A stretch of 64,000 bases of DNA from Rhodobacter sp. SGA-6-6. Lineage in GTDB: Bacteria > Pseudomonadota > Alphaproteobacteria > Rhodobacterales > Rhodobacteraceae. Below the pieces are notes generated by a model that was not told the origin of the DNA, made no database searches, and saw only the letters and a list, made by a program, of their open reading frames with translations. The DNA is taken from positions 186,001-250,000 of the forward strand of contig NZ_JAAKGP010000002.1 in assembly GCF_011043545.1 (NCBI RefSeq), in the 5' to 3' direction. This document shows, piece by piece, positions 1 through 56,114 of this stretch. A program made the translations under genes and the position numbers. Positions within the stretch are counted from its first letter, which is position 1; each line of letters begins with the position of its first letter.

Positions 1-846
1 CGCCCGGCGCGCGAGGTGGCGGGCGACCACTGGGTCGTCCGCGGCGACCGCGGCATCACCTATGCCGCCACCCCGGGCGAGAAGACCCGGATCACCGCCG
101 GGACCTTCTGGCCCGAGGATTATACCGGCGAGCCGCAAATCAGCTTCTCGGCCACGGAAGGCGCGGAGATGGGGCTGAAACTGGGCGACCGGATCACCGT
201 CAACATCCTCGGCCGCGACATCACCGCGGTGGTCACCTCCTTCCGCGAGGTGGATTTCTCCAACGCCGGCATGGGCTTCGTGATGACGCTGAACCCTTCC
301 GCGCTGGCCGGCGCCCCGCATACCCATATCGCCACCGTCTACGCGCCGCCGGAGGCCGAGGCGACGATCCTTCGCGAGGTGACGAAGACCTGGCCCAACG
401 TCACCGCCATCCGCATCCGCGAGGCGGTGGACCGGGTGGCCGAGGCGCTGTCGGCCATCGCCACCGCCACCGCCTGGGCGGCGGCGGGAACGCTGCTGAC
501 CGGCTTCATCGTGCTGATCGGCGCGGCGGCGGCGGGCGAACGGGCCCGCATCTACGAGGCCGCGATCCTTAAAACCCTAGGCGCCACCCGCGCCCGCATC
601 CTGATCAGCTTCGCGCTGCGGGCGGGGCTGCTGGGGGCGGCGGCGGGGGTGGTCGCGGTGGCGGCGGGCGGCATCGCCGGCTGGGCGGTGATGCGCTTCG
701 TGATGGAGACGGATTACGTCTTCGAGCCGGTCTCGGCGCTGGCCATCGTCGCGGGGGGGATCATCGCCACGCTGCTGGCGGGCCTCGTCTTCGCCGCACG
801 GCCGCTGTCGGCCCGTCCGGCGCAGGTGCTGCGGGCGCAGGATTAG
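1..846 (+). CDS. FtsX-type ABC transporter permease, C-terminal part (5' truncated by window)
   Basis: The frame is open from the first base, so only the last 281 residues are visible and the natural start lies upstream. The visible part begins with a soluble, extracytoplasmic-type stretch containing GLKLGDRITVNILGR. It then has an FtsX-like membrane module with hydrophobic segments near visible residues 155-180, 200-230 and 243-268. Between the first two sits the conserved cytoplasmic loop EAAILKTLGATRARI, diagnostic of MacB/FtsX/YbbP-type permeases. Such permeases use a separate ATPase to drive lipoprotein or lipid handling at the inner membrane. That ATPase is probably encoded upstream, outside the window. 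The substrate cannot be told from this fragment. Confidence 0.85.
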   Translation, partial: RPAREVAGDHWVVRGDRGITYAATPGEKTRITAGTFWPEDYTGEPQISFSATEGAEMGLKLGDRITVNILGRDITAVVTSFREVDFSNAGMGFVMTLNPSALAGAPHTHIATVYAPPEAEATILREVTKTWPNVTAIRIREAVDRVAEALSAIATATAWAAAGTLLTGFIVLIGAAAAGERARIYEAAILKTLGATRARILISFALRAGLLGAAAGVVAVAAGGIAGWAVMRFVMETDYVFEPVSALAIVAGGIIATLLAGLVFAARPLSARPAQVLRAQD

Positions 847-923: not shown

Positions 924-1652
924 CTACCCCTGCCGCCGCAGCCAGGGCAGCACCAGCGTCAGCGCCCGCAACTCCCGGCTTTGCGGCCGGAACAGAAGCA
1001 GCGCCCGCCCCAGCCAGCCGAGCGGCGCCAGCAGAAGCGCCAGCCGCCCCGCCCGGGCCAAGGCCCCCGGCGGCCCCTCCGCACGATAGCCGGCGAAGGC
1101 GGCTTCCAGCCAGCGGGCGTCCTCCGGCCAGCGGGCGAAAGCGCTCTGCGCCAGCACCATCAGGTCCGCCGCCTGCCGCAGCCCGCCCGGCCGCGCGGCG
1201 CGGAAGCGTTCGAGGTCGATGAACCGCACCTGCGCGCCGTCCCAGCAGATGTCGCGCACCGCGGGGCGGCCATGCACCATGCCCGCCAGATGCAGCCGCG
1301 CCAGCGCCTGCCCCGCCGCTTCCATCGCCCGCAGCTTCCCGGCCTCGGCAAGGCCCGGATCGGCCACCACCTGCGGCAGCACCGGGCCGGCGTCGGGCAG
1401 GACGATCCAGCCCGGCCCCTCCATCTCGACCCCCGCCACCGGCAGGCCCTGCGCCTGCAAGGCCCGAATCCCCTCGCGCTCGGCGGCGAAGCTGCGGGCC
1501 GGGTCGCCCTTCTGCAGCCGCATCCGGCCCGCCAGGCGCTCCACCCGTTTCAGCCAGAACCGCCGCCCGTCCGCCAGCTCCAGCGGCCGCACCCGGGCCG
1601 GAGGCTGGTCCAGCGCCTCCTCCACCGCCCGTTCCAGATCGGGGTCGGCCAT
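924..1652 (-). CDS. Kinase-like protein (Kdo/APH-type phosphotransferase fold)
   Basis: A 242-residue protein starting at the ATG 4 nt after the hemC stop, so the two are probably co-transcribed. An upstream in-frame extension would overlap hemC and is not used. It resembles small Rhodobacteraceae proteins related to lipopolysaccharide core (Kdo/WaaP-like) and aminoglycoside phosphotransferases. There is a Lys-containing N-terminal lobe (RRFWLKRVERL), then a catalytic-loop-like segment MVHGRPAVRDICW and a metal-binding-like FIDLERF. The usual HxD catalytic Asp is replaced: the loop reads HGR. A hydrophobic C-terminal tail (LALLLAPLGWLGRALLLF) suggests membrane association. The substrate is unknown and activity is uncertain. 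Confidence 0.6.
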   Translation of the reverse strand: MADPDLERAVEEALDQPPARVRPLELADGRRFWLKRVERLAGRMRLQKGDPARSFAAEREGIRALQAQGLPVAGVEMEGPGWIVLPDAGPVLPQVVADPGLAEAGKLRAMEAAGQALARLHLAGMVHGRPAVRDICWDGAQVRFIDLERFRAARPGGLRQAADLMVLAQSAFARWPEDARWLEAAFAGYRAEGPPGALARAGRLALLLAPLGWLGRALLLFRPQSRELRALTLVLPWLRRQG

Positions 1653-1656
1653 GCCT

Positions 1657-2592
1657 TCAGCCGAAGAAGCCCGGGCCTGCCCGGCCCAGCAGCTCCCCGG
1701 CCAGCGCCACGCCCATGGCGGCGCCATCGCCCGCGGCCCCGCGGACCTCGCCCGCGACCGAGGCGCTGCCGTCCGGCCGCAGGATTTCCCCGCGCAGCCA
1801 GAGCCTGTCGCCCTCCAGCACCGCCAGCCCGGCGATCGGCGTCTGGCAGGAACCGTCGAGCCGGGTCAGGAAGGCCCGCTCCGCCGCCAGCCGCAGCCCG
1901 GTCGGCCCGTGATGGATCGCCGCCAGCATCGCCGCCACGCGGGTATCGCCGACACGCCGCTCCACCCCGATGGCACCCTGGGCACAGGCCGGCAGCATCT
2001 CCTCCGGCGCGATGGCGGAGCGGGCGACATGCGCCATGCCCAGCCGGGTCAGCCCGGCCATGGCCAGGAAGGTGGCGTCCGCCACCCCTTCCTCCAGCTT
2101 GCGCATCCTTGTCTGGACGTTGCCGCGGAACTCCACCAGCTGCAGGTCCGGCCGCCGCAGCTTCAGCTGCGCCCGCCGCCGCAGCGAGGAGGAGCCGACC
2201 ACCGCGCCCTGCGGCAGGTCCTGCAGCCGCGCCGCCCGCGGGCTGACGAAGCCGTCGCGCACGTCGGCGCGTTCCAGATAGCAGTCCAGCACCAGCCCCT
2301 CGGGCTGCAGCGTCGGCATGTCCTTCATCGAATGGACGGCGATGTCGATGGCGCCGTCCTGCAACGCCTCCTCGATCTCGCGGGTGAACAGGCCCTTGCC
2401 GCCGATCTCGCGCAGCGCCTTGTCCTGGATCTGGTCGCCAGTGACCTTGATCACCACGGTCTCGAAAGCCGCCTCGGGCAGGGCGAAGGCCGCCATCAGG
2501 CAGCGCCGCACCTCATGCGCCTGCCACAGCGCAAGCGGAGAGCCGCGGGTTCCGATCTTCAGCGGGCGGTCGGGGGAGGGCATGTCGCTCAT
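1657..2592 (-). CDS. hemC: Porphobilinogen deaminase (hydroxymethylbilane synthase)
   Basis: Polymerises four porphobilinogen units into hydroxymethylbilane in the cytosolic tetrapyrrole pathway. The 311-residue length matches the family. The N-terminal IGTRGSPLALWQA, the active-site HSMKD (residues 87-91, Asp91 catalytic) and the dipyrromethane-cofactor Cys249 in DGSCQTPIAG are all present. The start at 2592 (MSDMPSPD) is the first ATG; a second ATG three codons later is equally possible because neither has a strong ribosome site. It lies 4 nt upstream of the kinase-like gene and about 1 kb from the divergently oriented hemE. Confidence 0.97.
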   Translation of the reverse strand: MSDMPSPDRPLKIGTRGSPLALWQAHEVRRCLMAAFALPEAAFETVVIKVTGDQIQDKALREIGGKGLFTREIEEALQDGAIDIAVHSMKDMPTLQPEGLVLDCYLERADVRDGFVSPRAARLQDLPQGAVVGSSSLRRRAQLKLRRPDLQLVEFRGNVQTRMRKLEEGVADATFLAMAGLTRLGMAHVARSAIAPEEMLPACAQGAIGVERRVGDTRVAAMLAAIHHGPTGLRLAAERAFLTRLDGSCQTPIAGLAVLEGDRLWLRGEILRPDGSASVAGEVRGAAGDGAAMGVALAGELLGRAGPGFFG

Positions 2593-44583: not shown

Positions 44584-44643
44584 GGCGGGGTGAACCCCGC
44601 CCTACATAAGGACCGTTCGCGTAGGGTGGGGTTTCACCCCACC
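44584..44643. repeat. REP-like inverted pair of mixed type (locus R4)
   Basis: A GGCGGGG-type copy (44584-44605, ending CTAC) faces a GGTGGGG-type copy (44621-44643, starting GTAG) across 15 nt. The TCA at 44634-44636 in the second copy is the stop codon of the SulP gene. Confidence 0.82.
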
Positions 44644-46271
44644 GGCCCGCCCGCCTCCACCTCCCCCAAATCCGCCAGATACCTCACCAGCGGCTCCCTC
44701 AATCCCTGCGCCAGCAGCACCCTCCGCACCGCCGGGCGGGCGCCGAGGATGCAGAGCCGGCCGCCCTTGCGCTCCAGCTTGCGGGCCAGCACCTCGAAAC
44801 TGCGGGCGCCGGAGCTGTCGATCATCGGCACATCGCCGAAGTCGATGACAAACCGGCGCGGGCGGTCGGCGATGCGGTCCAGCACGCCGCCCACCTGCGC
44901 CGCCGAGCCGAAGAAGAACGGGCCGTGCAGCCGGTAGAGGATCAGGTCGTCGCGCTGCACCGCGCCCTCGCCCTCGGGCGCCTCCAGCGCGGTGCCGTCC
45001 GACATCCGCTTGATGAAGACCAGCCCGGCCAGCGCGAAGCCGACCATGATCCCCTCGGTCAGGTCGCGGAACACCACCAGGAGGAAGGTGCTGACCACGA
45101 TCAGCGCATCCCCGCGCGAGCCGCGGACCAGGGTCCACAGCTCCTCCTTCTCGATCATGCCCCAGCTGACCACCGCCAGCACCCCCGCCAGCGCGGCCAG
45201 CGGGATATAGCCGGCCAACGGCGCGGCGACGACCATCACCGCCAGCAGGAACAGCGCGTGCAGCATCCCCGAGACCGGCCCGCGGGAGCCGGCGCGCACG
45301 TTGGTCGCAGTGCGGGCGATGGTGCCGGTGACGCAGAAGCCGCCGAACAGGGCCGAGCCGATGTTGGCCACCCCCTGCCCCATCAGCTCGGCGTTCGACC
45401 GATGCCGCGCGCCGGACATGCCGTCGGCCACCACCGCCGAGAGCAGCGACTCGATGGCGCCGAGGAGGGCGAAGGAAAACGCCCAGGGCGCGGCCTCGGC
45501 CAAAGCCGCGCGCGACAGCGCCGGCAGGGCGGGCATCGGCGGCAGGTTCGGCAGGGCGCCGAAGCGGCTGGCGATGGTCTCGACCGGCAGGGCCAGCCCG
45601 GCGGCCACGACCGAGGTCAGCACCACTGCGATCAGCATCCCCGGCCAATGCGGCCGCCAGCGCCGCAAGCCGATGATCACCGCCACCGACAGCGCGGCAA
45701 TGCCGAAGGCGGCCGGCGTCACCGTGCCCCGCGCCGCCCACAGCGCCTCCAGCTTGTGCAGGATCTCGGCCGGTTCCGCCCCGGGCAGGGTCAGGCCGAA
45801 CAGTTCCTTGATCTGGCTGGAGAAGATGATGATGCCGATCCCGGCGGTGAAGCCCACCGTCACCGGATAGGGGATGAACTTGATGTAGGTCCCCAGCCGC
45901 AACGCCCCGGCGACGATCAGCATAAAGCCGGACAGGAAGGTGGCGAGGATCAGCCCCTCCACCCCGGTCTGCATCGTGCAGGCGGCGACCAGCACGATGA
46001 AGGCCCCCGCCGGCCCGCCGATCTGGAACCGGCTGCCGCCGAGGGCCGAGACCAGGAAGCCGCCGACGATGGCGGTGTAGAGCCCGCGCTCCGGCCCCAC
46101 CCCGCTGGCGATGGCGATGGCCATCGACAAGGGCAGCGCCACGATGGCGACGGTCAGCCCGGCCAGCGCATCGGCCTTGAGGTCGGAAAGGCGGTATCCT
46201 TCCTGCCAGACCGTCACGATCTTGGGCAGAAAGTCGGTCAGGCCATTGTGGCCCCGCGCTCTGTCGGTCAT
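44634..46271 (-). CDS. SulP-family anion transporter with STAS domain
   Basis: 545 residues if started at ATG 46271; an ATG at 46319 would add 16 residues and also lacks a good ribosome site. The N-terminal ~400 residues give 11-14 membrane segments with the SulP signatures LPLSMAIAIASGVGPERGLY and GTIARTATNVRAGSRGPVSGM. The C-terminal STAS domain (about 420-540) includes FVIDFGDVPMIDSSGARSF. Members carry sulfate, bicarbonate or dicarboxylates; the substrate here is not predictable. Its stop codon lies in a REP-like element. Confidence 0.92.
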   Translation of the reverse strand: MTDRARGHNGLTDFLPKIVTVWQEGYRLSDLKADALAGLTVAIVALPLSMAIAIASGVGPERGLYTAIVGGFLVSALGGSRFQIGGPAGAFIVLVAACTMQTGVEGLILATFLSGFMLIVAGALRLGTYIKFIPYPVTVGFTAGIGIIIFSSQIKELFGLTLPGAEPAEILHKLEALWAARGTVTPAAFGIAALSVAVIIGLRRWRPHWPGMLIAVVLTSVVAAGLALPVETIASRFGALPNLPPMPALPALSRAALAEAAPWAFSFALLGAIESLLSAVVADGMSGARHRSNAELMGQGVANIGSALFGGFCVTGTIARTATNVRAGSRGPVSGMLHALFLLAVMVVAAPLAGYIPLAALAGVLAVVSWGMIEKEELWTLVRGSRGDALIVVSTFLLVVFRDLTEGIMVGFALAGLVFIKRMSDGTALEAPEGEGAVQRDDLILYRLHGPFFFGSAAQVGGVLDRIADRPRRFVIDFGDVPMIDSSGARSFEVLARKLERKGGRLCILGARPAVRRVLLAQGLREPLVRYLADLGEVEAGGPVG

Positions 46272-46383
46272 CTTCGCGTCCAAGCCAAGGGAGTGCGCCA
46301 GTAATCGCCGGCCGGTCATGGTGCTTGAATGCCGCCAGATGACTCCCCAGCCACCCCGCTGTCAATCACCAACGGAAGAACTC

Positions 46384-53930: not shown

Positions 53931-55586
53931 ATGGCCAGCTACCAGTATGTCTACCACATGGACGGCGTGTCCAAGACCTATCCGGGCGGCAAGAAGGTGT
54001 TCGAGAACATCCGCCTGAACTTCCTGCCCGGGGTCAAGATCGGCGTCGTCGGCGTCAACGGCTCGGGCAAGTCCACGCTCCTGCGTGTCATGGCCGGGAT
54101 CGACAAGGATTTCACCGGCGAAGCCTGGCACGCCAAGGGCGCCACCGTCGGCTACCTGCCGCAGGAGCCGCAGCTCGACCCGCAACTCAACGTGCGCGGC
54201 AACGTGATGGAGGGGGTGAAGGCCAAGCAGGCCAAGCTCGACCGCTACAACGAACTGGCGATGAACTACTCGGACGAGACCGCCGAGGAGATGGCCGCCC
54301 TGCAGGACCAGATCGACGCCGAGAACCTCTGGGACCTGGATTCGCAGGTGGACGTGGCGATGGAAGCCCTGCGCTGCCCGCCCGACGATGCCGACGTGGA
54401 AACCCTCTCGGGCGGCGAACGCCGCCGGGTCGCGCTGTGCAAGCTGCTCCTGGAAGCGCCGGACATGCTGCTGCTGGACGAACCGACCAACCACCTGGAT
54501 GCCGAGACCATCGCCTGGCTGCAAAAGCACCTGATCGAATACAAGGGCACGATCCTGATCGTCACCCACGACCGCTATTTCCTCGACGACATCACCGGCT
54601 GGATTCTCGAGTTGGACCGCGGCCGCGGCATTCCCTACGAGGGCAACTATTCCGCCTGGCTGGAGCAGAAAGCCAAGCGGCTGGCGCAGGAAGCGCGCGA
54701 GGACCGGGCGACGCAGAAATCGCTGGAGCGCGAGCTGGAATGGATCCGCGCCGGCGCCAAGGCCCGTCAGGCCAAGTCCAAGGCCCGGATCGCGGCCTAT
54801 GAGGAAAAGGCCAGCCAGTCCGAGCGCGAGAAGATCACCACCGCCCAGATCATCATCCCCAACGGCCCCCGCCTCGGCGGCAAGGTGATCGAGGTGGAGG
54901 GGCTGGCGAAGCATTTCGGCGACAAGCAACTGATCGAGGACCTGTCCTTCAGCCTGCCCCCCGGCGGCATCGTCGGCGTGATCGGCCCGAACGGCGCTGG
55001 CAAGTCCACCCTGTTCCGCATGATCACCGGGCAGGAGACACCCGACGCCGGCACCATCACCCTGGGCGACACGGTGAAGCTGGCCTATGTCGACCAGTCC
55101 CGCGACGCGCTGGATGCCAACAAGACGGTGTGGGAGGAAATCTCCGACGGGCTGGAGGTGCTGGAACTCGGCGACGCCACCATGAACTCCCGCGCCTATT
55201 GCGGGGCGTTCAACTTCAAGGGCGGCGACCAGCAGAAGAAGGTGGGTCTCCTGTCCGGCGGCGAACGCAACCGGGTGCACATGGCCAAGCTGCTGCGCCG
55301 CGGCGGCAACGTCCTGCTGCTCGACGAACCCACCAACGACCTGGACGTGGAAACCCTGCAAGCGCTGGAGGCGGCGCTGGAGGATTTCGCCGGCTGCGCG
55401 GTGATCATCAGCCACGACCGCTTCTTCCTCGACCGCCTCTGCACCCATATCCTGGCCTTCGAGGGCGACGCCCATGTCGAATGGTTCGAGGGCAACTTCG
55501 AGGCCTATGAGGAAGACAAGGTGCGCCGTCTCGGCCCGGATTCGATCGAGCCGAAGCGGGTGAAATACAAGAAGTTTTCGAGGTAG
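53931..55586 (+). CDS. ettA: Energy-dependent translational throttle protein EttA (ABC-F)
   Basis: 551 residues with two ABC domains and no membrane part. Walker A motifs are GVNGSGKST and GPNGAGKST; signatures are [11 protein letters not shown] and [11 protein letters not shown]. The P-site-tRNA-interacting linker lies between the domains ([20 protein letters not shown]...[15 protein letters not shown]). ABC-F EttA gates the first peptide bond according to the ATP/ADP ratio. A REP-like pair ends the region 3 nt before its stop codon (stop 55584-55586). Confidence 0.96.
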
Positions 55587-55639
55587 GGTGGGGTTCCACC
55601 CCACCGTTGCGGGATCGGTGGGGTGGAACCCCACCCTAC
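55583..55639. repeat. REP-like inverted pair, heads outward (locus R6)
   Basis: Copies 55583-55605 (starts GTAG) and 55617-55639 (ends CTAC) with an 11-nt spacer. Unlike the other pairs the GTAG ends face outward. The left end overlaps the ettA stop codon and the right end contains the stop codon of the RAYT gene. Confidence 0.85.
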
Positions 55640-56114
55640 CGCCAATGCACCGACGAATACGGCCAATCCTCCGGCCGAGCAACGAACCCGTGCTTCACCG
55701 GATTGATGTGGCAATACCAGACATGCGCCGCGAAATCGTCCTCGTCGCGGATGTGGTGTTCCCAGAACCGCCTCTGCCATATCCCGGCATCCCCCTTGGC
55801 GATCTTGCTCGGCGAGCGCGGTAGGGTGGGGTTCCACCCCACCGCCTCCTTCACCTCCCGCGTGAACCGCGCCTTGATCGCGCCCCATCGCGTCGAGAAG
55901 TCGCCGTCTCCTTCCGGCATTGCCCATACGCAATGCAGATGATCCGGCAACACGACCCACGCCGCGATCCCGAACGGCCGCTCCGCCCTTGTCGCCGCCA
56001 CCGCCCGCCGCAGGGCCGCCACCTCGCGCATAAGCAGGTCGCCGCCCCGACGGCCAGGCAGACCGTGAAGAACACCCGCGCCCCTGTCCGTTTCGGCCTG
56101 ATGTAGTTCGGCAT
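55636..56114 (-). pseudogene. REP-associated tyrosine transposase (RAYT, IS200-like), frameshifted
   Basis: The frame from ATG 56114 starts like a RAYT (MPNYIRPKRTGARVFFTVC) but breaks near 56050: the family-typical continuation (RRGGDLLMREVAALR) is in the -1 frame, so a small indel has disrupted it. The rest is well preserved: the HUH site in WVVLPDHLHCVW, STRWGAIKARFTREV, GIWQRRFWEHHIRDE and the catalytic-Tyr region YCHINPVKHGFV. A REP-like copy (55821-55843) lies in the reading frame, adding VGWNPTL. The stop codon (55636-55638) is supplied by locus R6. RAYTs are single-copy domesticated transposases thought to spread REP elements. A sequencing error at 56050 is possible. Confidence 0.85.
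55821..55843. repeat. REP-like copy inside the RAYT coding frame (locus R7)
   Basis: A complete 23-nt GTAG-headed copy of the GGTGGGG type, unpaired, lying within the RAYT reading frame in the variable linker between the RFTREV and GIWQRRF segments. Confidence 0.85.

Follow-up and report, generated by a model that had tools for sequence, protein, structure and literature searches.

A REP palindrome in the reading frame of a Rhodobacter RAYT gene and its counterparts in Rhodobacteraceae

Introduction

REP-associated tyrosine transposases (RAYTs, or TnpAREP) are domesticated transposases that are retained together with populations of repetitive extragenic palindromic (REP) sequences, for reasons that are debated. 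Here we analyse a stretch of 64,000 nucleotides (nt) of Rhodobacter sp. SGA-6-6 (contig NZ_JAAKGP010000002.1, positions 186,001 to 250,000), hereafter the window, in which the remnant of a RAYT gene (55636-56114, minus strand) carries a complete REP within its own coding sequence. This locus raises the question of how a copy of the repeat came to lie, in frame, inside the gene of the enzyme that it probably serves as a substrate. A sequence-only reading of the window had suggested that this protein mobilised the repeat family and possibly inserted one copy into itself. From a comparison of RAYT genes across the family, the inner REP looks like a habit of Rhodobacteraceae RAYTs rather than a private accident.

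Results

Within the window gene, the coding linker between the HuH (histidine-hydrophobic-histidine) motif and the tyrosine motif (55786-55860, minus strand) corresponds to the site of REPs in related RAYTs. It contains, at 55821-55843 (plus strand), a perfect REP with a GTAG head, a perfect 8-base-pair (bp) stem and a 3-nt loop, whose minus strand contributes VGWNPTL to the protein in frame; the complete in-frame palindrome described in the sequence-only reading is confirmed. Two further copies form a 3' doublet at 55617-55639 (minus strand) and 55583-55605 (plus strand), and the inner REP and both doublet copies are letter-identical 23-mers. The head of the first doublet copy (55639-55636) gives the RAYT gene its TAG stop (55636-55638), which the sequence-only reading had placed inside this pair, and the head of the second (55583-55586) gives the convergent gene ettA its TAG stop (55584-55586). 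The 23-mer is predicted to fold into 8 bp and a 3-nt loop with GTAG unpaired (z-score -3), and the doublet 55583-55639 into 24 bp (z-score -9). With inverted REPs, outward GTAG heads and 11 nt between the copies, this doublet has the features of a REPIN (REP doublet forming a hairpin).

The repeat is also found beyond this gene. Searching with a 24-mer at up to 3 mismatches gave 6 matches in the window and 0 in 100 window shuffles. When up to 2 mismatches were allowed across the genome, 18 matches were obtained at 16 places, two of the matches being the opposite strand of a listed place, and a reversed control pattern gave 0 matches; the element is thus present elsewhere, as the sequence-only reading had supposed. 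The exact pattern, which we call type A (GTAGGGTGGGGT..), has 8 matches in the genome, 5 of them beyond the RAYT locus. We observed no headed REP within 350 nt 5' of the window RAYT, which has the 3' doublet and the copy inside the gene. Of the features of a REPtron (Nunvar et al. 2010), dispersal of the cognate REP in the genome is present and inverted flanking REPs on both sides are absent.

The identification of the gene as a RAYT is firm. NCBIfam model NF047646 (REP_Tyr_transpos) scores 157.9 bits for 55636-56046 (cut-off 80), which agrees with the RAYT core that had been recognised from the letters, and the HuH motif DHLH and the tyrosine motif YCHINPVKHG, with WQRRFWEHH between them, are undamaged. 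H59 and H61 of the HuH motif and Y149 and P154 (the tyrosine with NP) are invariant among 47 aligned relatives. The sole PDB sequence match is 4er8, E. coli TnpAREP (E = 1.4e-34), and a Pfam search gave no match for the downstream part of the gene. At E <= 0.001, this is the single NF047646 match in the whole genome.

The gene starts at an ATG at 56114, preceded by GGAGGA. Its N-terminal 22 codons, MPNYIRPKRTGARVFFTVCLAV (56114-56049), are in one frame and the remainder, from GGDLLMREV to the stop (56046-55636), is in another, which places the frame change that had been reported near 56050 inside 56046-56050 (minus strand). Translated homologues cross the equivalent position in a single frame. 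Measured against NF047646 membership, the gene passes the score cut-off and has the HuH residues and the catalytic tyrosine with NP, and it fails to form a single intact open reading frame (ORF). As the frame changes inside 56046-56050, the window RAYT is either a remnant or the product of a sequencing error. The latter, in which an assembly or sequencing mistake hides a gene that is intact in the living strain, is possible, given the G-run at 56045-56048 in a 67-contig draft and the intact state of the remaining motifs, yet we lean towards a real frameshift.

To place the inner REP in context, we compared RAYT relatives, which occur in at least 131 of 394 Rhodobacteraceae genomes (by the family model, in 2 of 13 genomes of the same genus). 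We read 131 loci from the matches listed: the window locus (L019), L020, 29 further loci and 100 more stretches; some genomes gave more than one locus, and some listed RAYT matches were left out of the 131. The linker was taken as the segment from IKxRF to WQxR, and the union of two extractions yielded a first set of 125 loci (L104, L105 and L125 were not extracted, and L129, L142 and L150 are broken). A headed REP was defined by a GTAG or GTAA head, an 8-bp stem with at most one mismatch and a loop of 2-5 nt. A second set comprised the best 80 of 570 relatives, with linkers read in 79, which were sorted by record title into 43 from the family and 36 from outside; 8 of the 43 family records repeat first-set records.

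A REP also occupies this linker in open-frame homologues from other genera, including Paracoccus haematequi (L181), Sulfitobacter (L180) and Marivivens (L182), and in several of them the type agrees as well. In view of these homologues, descent most likely brought the inner copy along with the gene, which broke only later, as judged from the sequences compared. These intact homologues do not lack the inner copy, and the palindrome is most likely an ancestral segment of the gene, the case that the sequence-only reading had named as refuting it, though one that is itself an inserted REP. Across 43 loci, the inner stem was identical to a flanking stem in 36, compared with 230 of 1806 mismatched locus pairs (12.7%). 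A private, recent self-insertion by the window genome's own RAYT could explain the letter identity of the inner copy and the 3' doublet copies. However, loci generally show such identity between inner and flanking stems, and homologues in other genera have a REP at the same place, so that we regard a recent event of this kind as very unlikely. Among the 13 same-genus genomes, no sister species with or without the same inner REP was found; only 2 have a RAYT, and L020 lies far away in the tree. The earlier proposal is thus partly supported: the gene is a RAYT with a broken frame, and the repeat is of the kind that serves this enzyme family as substrate, with 5 exact copies elsewhere in the genome. 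As described below, the inner type tracks the dispersed type among relatives, as would be expected of a paired enzyme and substrate. The recent insertion of a REP by this protein into its own gene is not supported.

Linker length is bimodal, at about 18-21 amino acids (aa) or at least 24 aa, and a headed inner REP was present in 55 of the 125 first-set linkers (54 of 60 long; 1 of 65 short). The lone short-linker case, L076, reflects a linker cut by the second extraction (22 aa, against 31 aa in the first). In the second set, inner REPs occurred in 20 of 43 family linkers and in 0 of 36 from outside. These figures depend on three loci titled 'Alphaproteobacteria bacterium', of which L184 (no REP) and L210 (REP) were put in the family and L249 (no REP) outside; if L184 and L210 are instead assigned to the non-family group, the figures become 19 of 41 and 1 of 38. 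Among class-level loci (L151-L179), linkers were read in 14 of 29 and none had an inner REP, most of these loci being far RAYT-like groups.

When the 60 long linkers were shuffled synonymously, 0.53 headed hairpins were expected and 54 were observed; furthermore, non-linker windows of the same genes contained a headed hairpin in 0 of 120 cases. A synonymous shuffle scored on stem length only was weak (P <= 0.005 in 14 of 91 linkers, mean P 0.35, in a set that included 21-aa linkers; P > 0.02 in 27 of 49 linkers with a stem of at least 7), because REP-derived peptides themselves favour palindromes, and it was the addition of the GTAG/GTAA head that gave a clear result. One might suppose that the palindrome is an ordinary coding segment that resembles a REP by chance, since it is in frame and encodes a plain loop peptide. 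Given the shuffling result, the canonical GTAG heads and the dispersal of the same letters in the genomes, the probability of this is negligible.

The REPs also leave a mark on codon usage. CTA makes up 31.9% of leucine codons in long linkers and 2.3% outside them, because the REP end CTAC forces CTA, and AGG makes up 15.5% of arginine codons in long linkers and 5.7% outside. Of 45 forward inner REPs, 44 have the frame xGT AGG, the exception being the L076 artefact. Of 68 in reverse orientation, 57 share a single frame and the two remaining frames hold 7 and 4; shared descent accounts for part of this preference. At the other end of the gene, the TAG of a REP head is the RAYT stop in 56 of 124 first-set and 19 of 35 second-set genes, which makes the window stop typical. 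We had considered that the 3' REP doublet truncated the C-terminus of the window protein, and this idea was dropped: 47 residues follow its linker, at the short end of the range of relatives, and other REP-terminated relatives have from 47 (L183) to 89 (L097).

We then compared inner types with the repeats dispersed in each genome, using exact counts of four types, A, B (GTAGGGCGGGGT..), C (GTAGGGTGGGTT..) and D (GTAGGCCGGGCT..), in 80 chosen genomes, of which 54 have a REP-like linker, 16 a RAYT without one and 10 no RAYT match. The reversed control was 0 throughout. Inner types were assigned by hand, degenerate inner REPs and types E, AT and S were not counted as A-D, and two copies were subtracted for the linker before dispersed types were ranked. 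In 37 of 40 genomes the inner type outnumbered the other three among the dispersed copies, in one more (G081) it shared first place with two of them, and rank tests for each type gave p = 1.4e-9 to 2e-7. A pairing of enzyme and substrate predicts that the inner type follows the dispersed type, and these counts, as a sequence correlation, would fit that prediction. In each of nine type-A genomes with listed places, at least one exact copy lies outside the RAYT locus. One genome (G120) has two RAYTs, one with inner type A and one with inner type B, and holds 5 exact A and 32 exact B copies. Separately, G030 holds 142 type-C copies, and its RAYT (L038) has a short linker and 3'-side REPs of another type (GGTGCGTG).

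Inner REPs are well conserved in some genes and differ between near-identical others. In 15 pairs among six B-type genes (L023, L025, L026, L032, L051 and L059; L082, which also belongs to this group, was excluded), the first inner REP is 0.87-1.00 identical, and 1.00 in 6 pairs, with synonymous differences in the remaining gene (core pS) of 0.57-0.87 per site. Across ten pairs of genes with an inner REP, the ratio of nonsynonymous to synonymous divergence (dN/dS) is 0.08-0.16. We also picked 30 loci by eye, on position and peptide, whose REPs share a homologous position, and fixed a loop of 3 nt manually in three of them; 25 of these 30 REPs keep 8 of 8 stem pairs. They comprise 10 distinct stems with 5 extra Watson-Crick pair types, and the paired fraction of these stems was reached by 0 of 2000 shuffles.

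Different inner REPs occur in three near-identical genes, L128, L205 (Roseicyclus marinus) and L214, whose coding sequences on either side of the linker agree at 85-94%. The inner REPs are an A doublet in L128, an A half followed by a D doublet in L205, and a D doublet in L214. The L205 linker, of 76 to 78 aa, thus contains three REPs that belong to two types, which would fit the replacement of half of one doublet by a second. Within Paracoccus, L181 has an inner A REP and L195 and L199 have a short linker at that place. An LPVVxSGRY-like segment lies between the REPs of the D-like doublets; of 204 linkers, 24 have it, or 23 if the duplicate L253 is discounted. Taken together with its spacer, the L033 linker had a good match (73-100%) in four genomes at the RAYT gene only, its two REP parts match many genome places, and a few other doublets align end to end, at 72-77%, via their REPs; at most 40 candidates were scored per genome in these searches.

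Some of these features could arise if inner REPs were spread by homologous recombination and horizontal transfer of whole alleles instead of by RAYT chemistry. L205 resembles the left part of L128 joined to the right part of L214, and in four genomes the L033 linker and spacer match well, among the candidates scored, only at the RAYT gene. This explanation leaves unaccounted for the way in which the inner type follows the dispersed type, as well as the several linker positions and the occurrence of both orders (F-R and R-F), and we judge it unlikely.

In the first set, a REP on the 5' flank was rarer where the gene held an inner one. Among first-set loci with any flanking REP, 14 of the 42 that have an inner REP also have one on the 5' side, against 40 of the 50 that lack an inner REP (p = 7e-6); among all first-set loci the counts are 15 of 55 and 40 of 70, respectively (p = 0.001). 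The second set gave a difference that was not significant (5 of 19 and 11 of 22, p = 0.2), and shared descent is uncorrected in all of these tests. The first-set result would be expected if selection maintained the inner REP as a hairpin, within the gene or its messenger RNA, that is bound by the RAYT and either limits expression or replaces the 5' flanking REP as a substrate in cis. The identity of REP letters (87-100%) at near-saturated synonymous divergence and the retention of the rare codons AGG and CTA point the same way. However, 70 of 125 family RAYTs manage without an inner REP, the second set does not reproduce the 5' difference at significance, and continuous exchange with dispersed copies would conserve the REP equally. 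We therefore hold a selected hairpin to be a serious but minority explanation. As a separate observation at one locus, L037 (G034:C296:7348-8171) has tandem RAYT reading frames, the second without the usual N-terminal part.

An AlphaFold model of L182, made with 46 relatives from the 79 read, had a mean pLDDT (predicted local distance difference test) score of 85.9. The core is well predicted, and pLDDT falls below 50 in the linker at residues 97-102 and 106-112. The linker is preceded by a helix (73-87) and followed by a strand (133-136), so that by our own helix labelling the model would place the insertion between alphaC and beta4. The best fold match is 4er8 (Foldseek E = 4.2e-18, root-mean-square deviation 1.5).

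The remaining features concern the surroundings of the gene and other copies of the repeat. The convergent neighbour ettA (53931-55586, plus strand; TIGR03719, 949.8 bits) encodes the energy-dependent translational throttle protein. Of 160 scanned loci, 24 have the RAYT close to the ettA 3' end (L019, L027, L029, L031, L033 and 19 others; flank lengths varied), and this recurring neighbourhood suggests long inheritance at one site. With up to 1 mismatch, 4 of the 7 type-A places in the genome fall within 55 kb on contig C12 (862-918, 44620-44643 and 55582-55843), two of the four lying inside the RAYT gene or where it ends; local hopping is possible, on small numbers. The REP at 44621-44643 overlaps the 3' end of a minus-strand ORF (44634-46319), which by its letters resembles a SulP-type transporter gene, and gives it its last codons and TGA stop. 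An inverted REP pair at 862-918, one copy of which has 2 mismatches to the 24-mer, lies between convergent ORFs at 16-846 (plus strand) and 924-1727 (minus strand). The window genome (G000) also holds 80 exact type-B copies (GTAGGGCGGGGT..ACCCCGCC) although the sole RAYT match in it is the broken type-A gene. In three same-genus genomes that were searched (G001, G003 and G004), there were 0 copies of type A or type B.

Discussion

Taken together, we think it probable that the window gene is a decaying, single-copy RAYT of a Rhodobacteraceae lineage that often carries its own cognate REP in the coding sequence, put there by RAYT action and kept there by such action or by exchange with other copies. 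This reading draws direct support from the location and frame of the inner REPs, from the match in type of inner, flanking and dispersed copies, from the differing inner REPs of near-identical genes, and from conservation at the nucleotide level where purifying selection acts on the genes. Moving from this correlation to an action of the RAYT is our inference, as is any role for the inner hairpin or loop.

A plausible sequence of events can be outlined. REPs would have entered these genes through the enzyme's own single-strand cut-and-join chemistry, as one copy or an inverted pair, in the loop between the helix that follows the HuH strand and the half of the protein with the WQ segment and the tyrosine. 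Insertions elsewhere would kill the gene, and this loop would tolerate them. The resident REP could then stay a good palindrome, matched to the dispersed copies, through continuing RAYT action or exchange with other copies. The gene of the window genome would subsequently have been disrupted by the frameshift, so that its small REP population lost its functional enzyme.

Several observations count against this account. The window genome is itself an exception to the agreement of inner and dispersed types, as its gene carries type A (8 exact copies) and type B reaches 80 copies without a RAYT; G380 is a further exception, and G081 shows a tie. At least four copies of a type occur in genomes that do not have that inner type (6 genomes for A, 4 for B, 7 for C and 1 for D), the four for type B being the window genome and three others, including G032 with a decayed B-like linker. 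G298 and G396 hold just one exact type-A copy outside the RAYT locus, and 6 of the 60 long linkers have no headed REP. The link between enzyme and substrate is a correlation drawn from genome sequences. The FastTree phylogeny, on which we counted 25 changes of presence or absence and 44 changes of type, is poorly resolved, and counts are uncorrected for shared descent; as the tree is poorly supported, we do not claim a number of independent insertions.

A stronger proposal is that of a self-referring system with the inner REP as a functional component, in which the substrate DNA encodes the loop and takes over the cis control exerted by the 5' flanking REP. The loop may adjoin the substrate-recognition region, and REP type and loop peptide change together (VGxKPT; in type D, PGFSPA/AGLKPGL), which would keep the enzyme matched to its substrate. 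We consider this distinctly unlikely.

A cognate REP inside the coding frame ties enzyme and substrate into one inherited unit, and the REP type of a RAYT can be read from the gene itself. L128, L205 and L214 provide a natural set of near-identical enzymes with different inner REPs. Whether a RAYT acts on its own gene, how one REP family gives way to another and what maintains the palindrome become testable questions.

Comparison with known systems

The closest solved relative of these proteins is E. coli TnpAREP (4er8), with which the fold and both motif halves align. The two differ in the linker, which is a few residues in the E. coli enzyme (86-89) and here about 18-19 aa at its basal length and up to 76 aa with REPs. 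A relation to subclass 2.2, that of the E. coli enzyme, would fit 4er8 as sole PDB sequence match and best fold match.

Palindromic elements of Rickettsia resemble the inner REPs as palindromic repeats that are read in frame inside proteins, and we know of no cognate enzyme that carries them. Their presence in genes is mentioned by Di Nocera et al. (2013; PMC3733652), who describe intragenic GTAG/CGTC REPs that are in frame, possibly in flexible parts of proteins, GTAG heads that often supply TAG stops to flanking ORFs, and many repeats between convergent genes. In-frame REPs, head-given stops and repeats between convergent genes are likewise seen here. The intragenic cases named in the relevant passages of that paper are in repair, replication and other genes, however, and for RAYT genes those passages speak only of repeats that flank the gene or overlap its end.

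Nunvar et al. (2010; PMC2817692) describe RAYTs as always flanked by two inverted REPs, an arrangement termed the REPtron. The Rhodobacteraceae loci share the cognate REP type, a REP often at or just after the stop, and some REPs near the gene; in contrast to the description in that paper, a 5' flanking REP is rarer when a REP lies inside the gene. Perfect-palindrome REPs are described for group 3 enzymes in the corresponding part of PMC8266576.

The nearest precedent is found in the account of tnpAREP subclasses by Quentin et al. (2018; PMC6006769), in the sections of which on subclass 2.4 in-frame REPs are reported, generally between the HuH and Y motifs, and REP insertions in a peripheral region are called a 'unique feature' of this subclass. 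Its text on subclasses 2.7 and 2.8 states that some carry a REP insertion (2.8, as we read it), and the short alphaC-beta4 insertions of subclass 2.2 are placed near the region involved in REP recognition. Subclass 2.4 occurs in Cyanobacteria, Bacteroidetes and scattered phyla, has the motifs NH[IFV]H and YIxNNP, and has its insertion domain between beta3 and alphaC. The window RAYT shares with it an in-frame REP between the HuH and Y motifs, but has DHLH (D58 in at least 90% of 47 relatives) and YCHINP, and belongs to the Rhodobacteraceae. In the RAYTs of this family the HuH motif is mostly DH-H, and the insertion would lie, by our own mapping, in alphaC-beta4, beyond the helix next to the HuH strand. 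The window RAYT resembles subclass 2.4, as described in those sections, without being placed in it. Among the papers listed from the main texts of the open-licence PMC literature, none on inner REPs of Rhodobacteraceae RAYTs was apparent. In-frame REPs inside tnpAREP genes are thus already published for subclass 2.4, and the Rhodobacteraceae case is a further variant.

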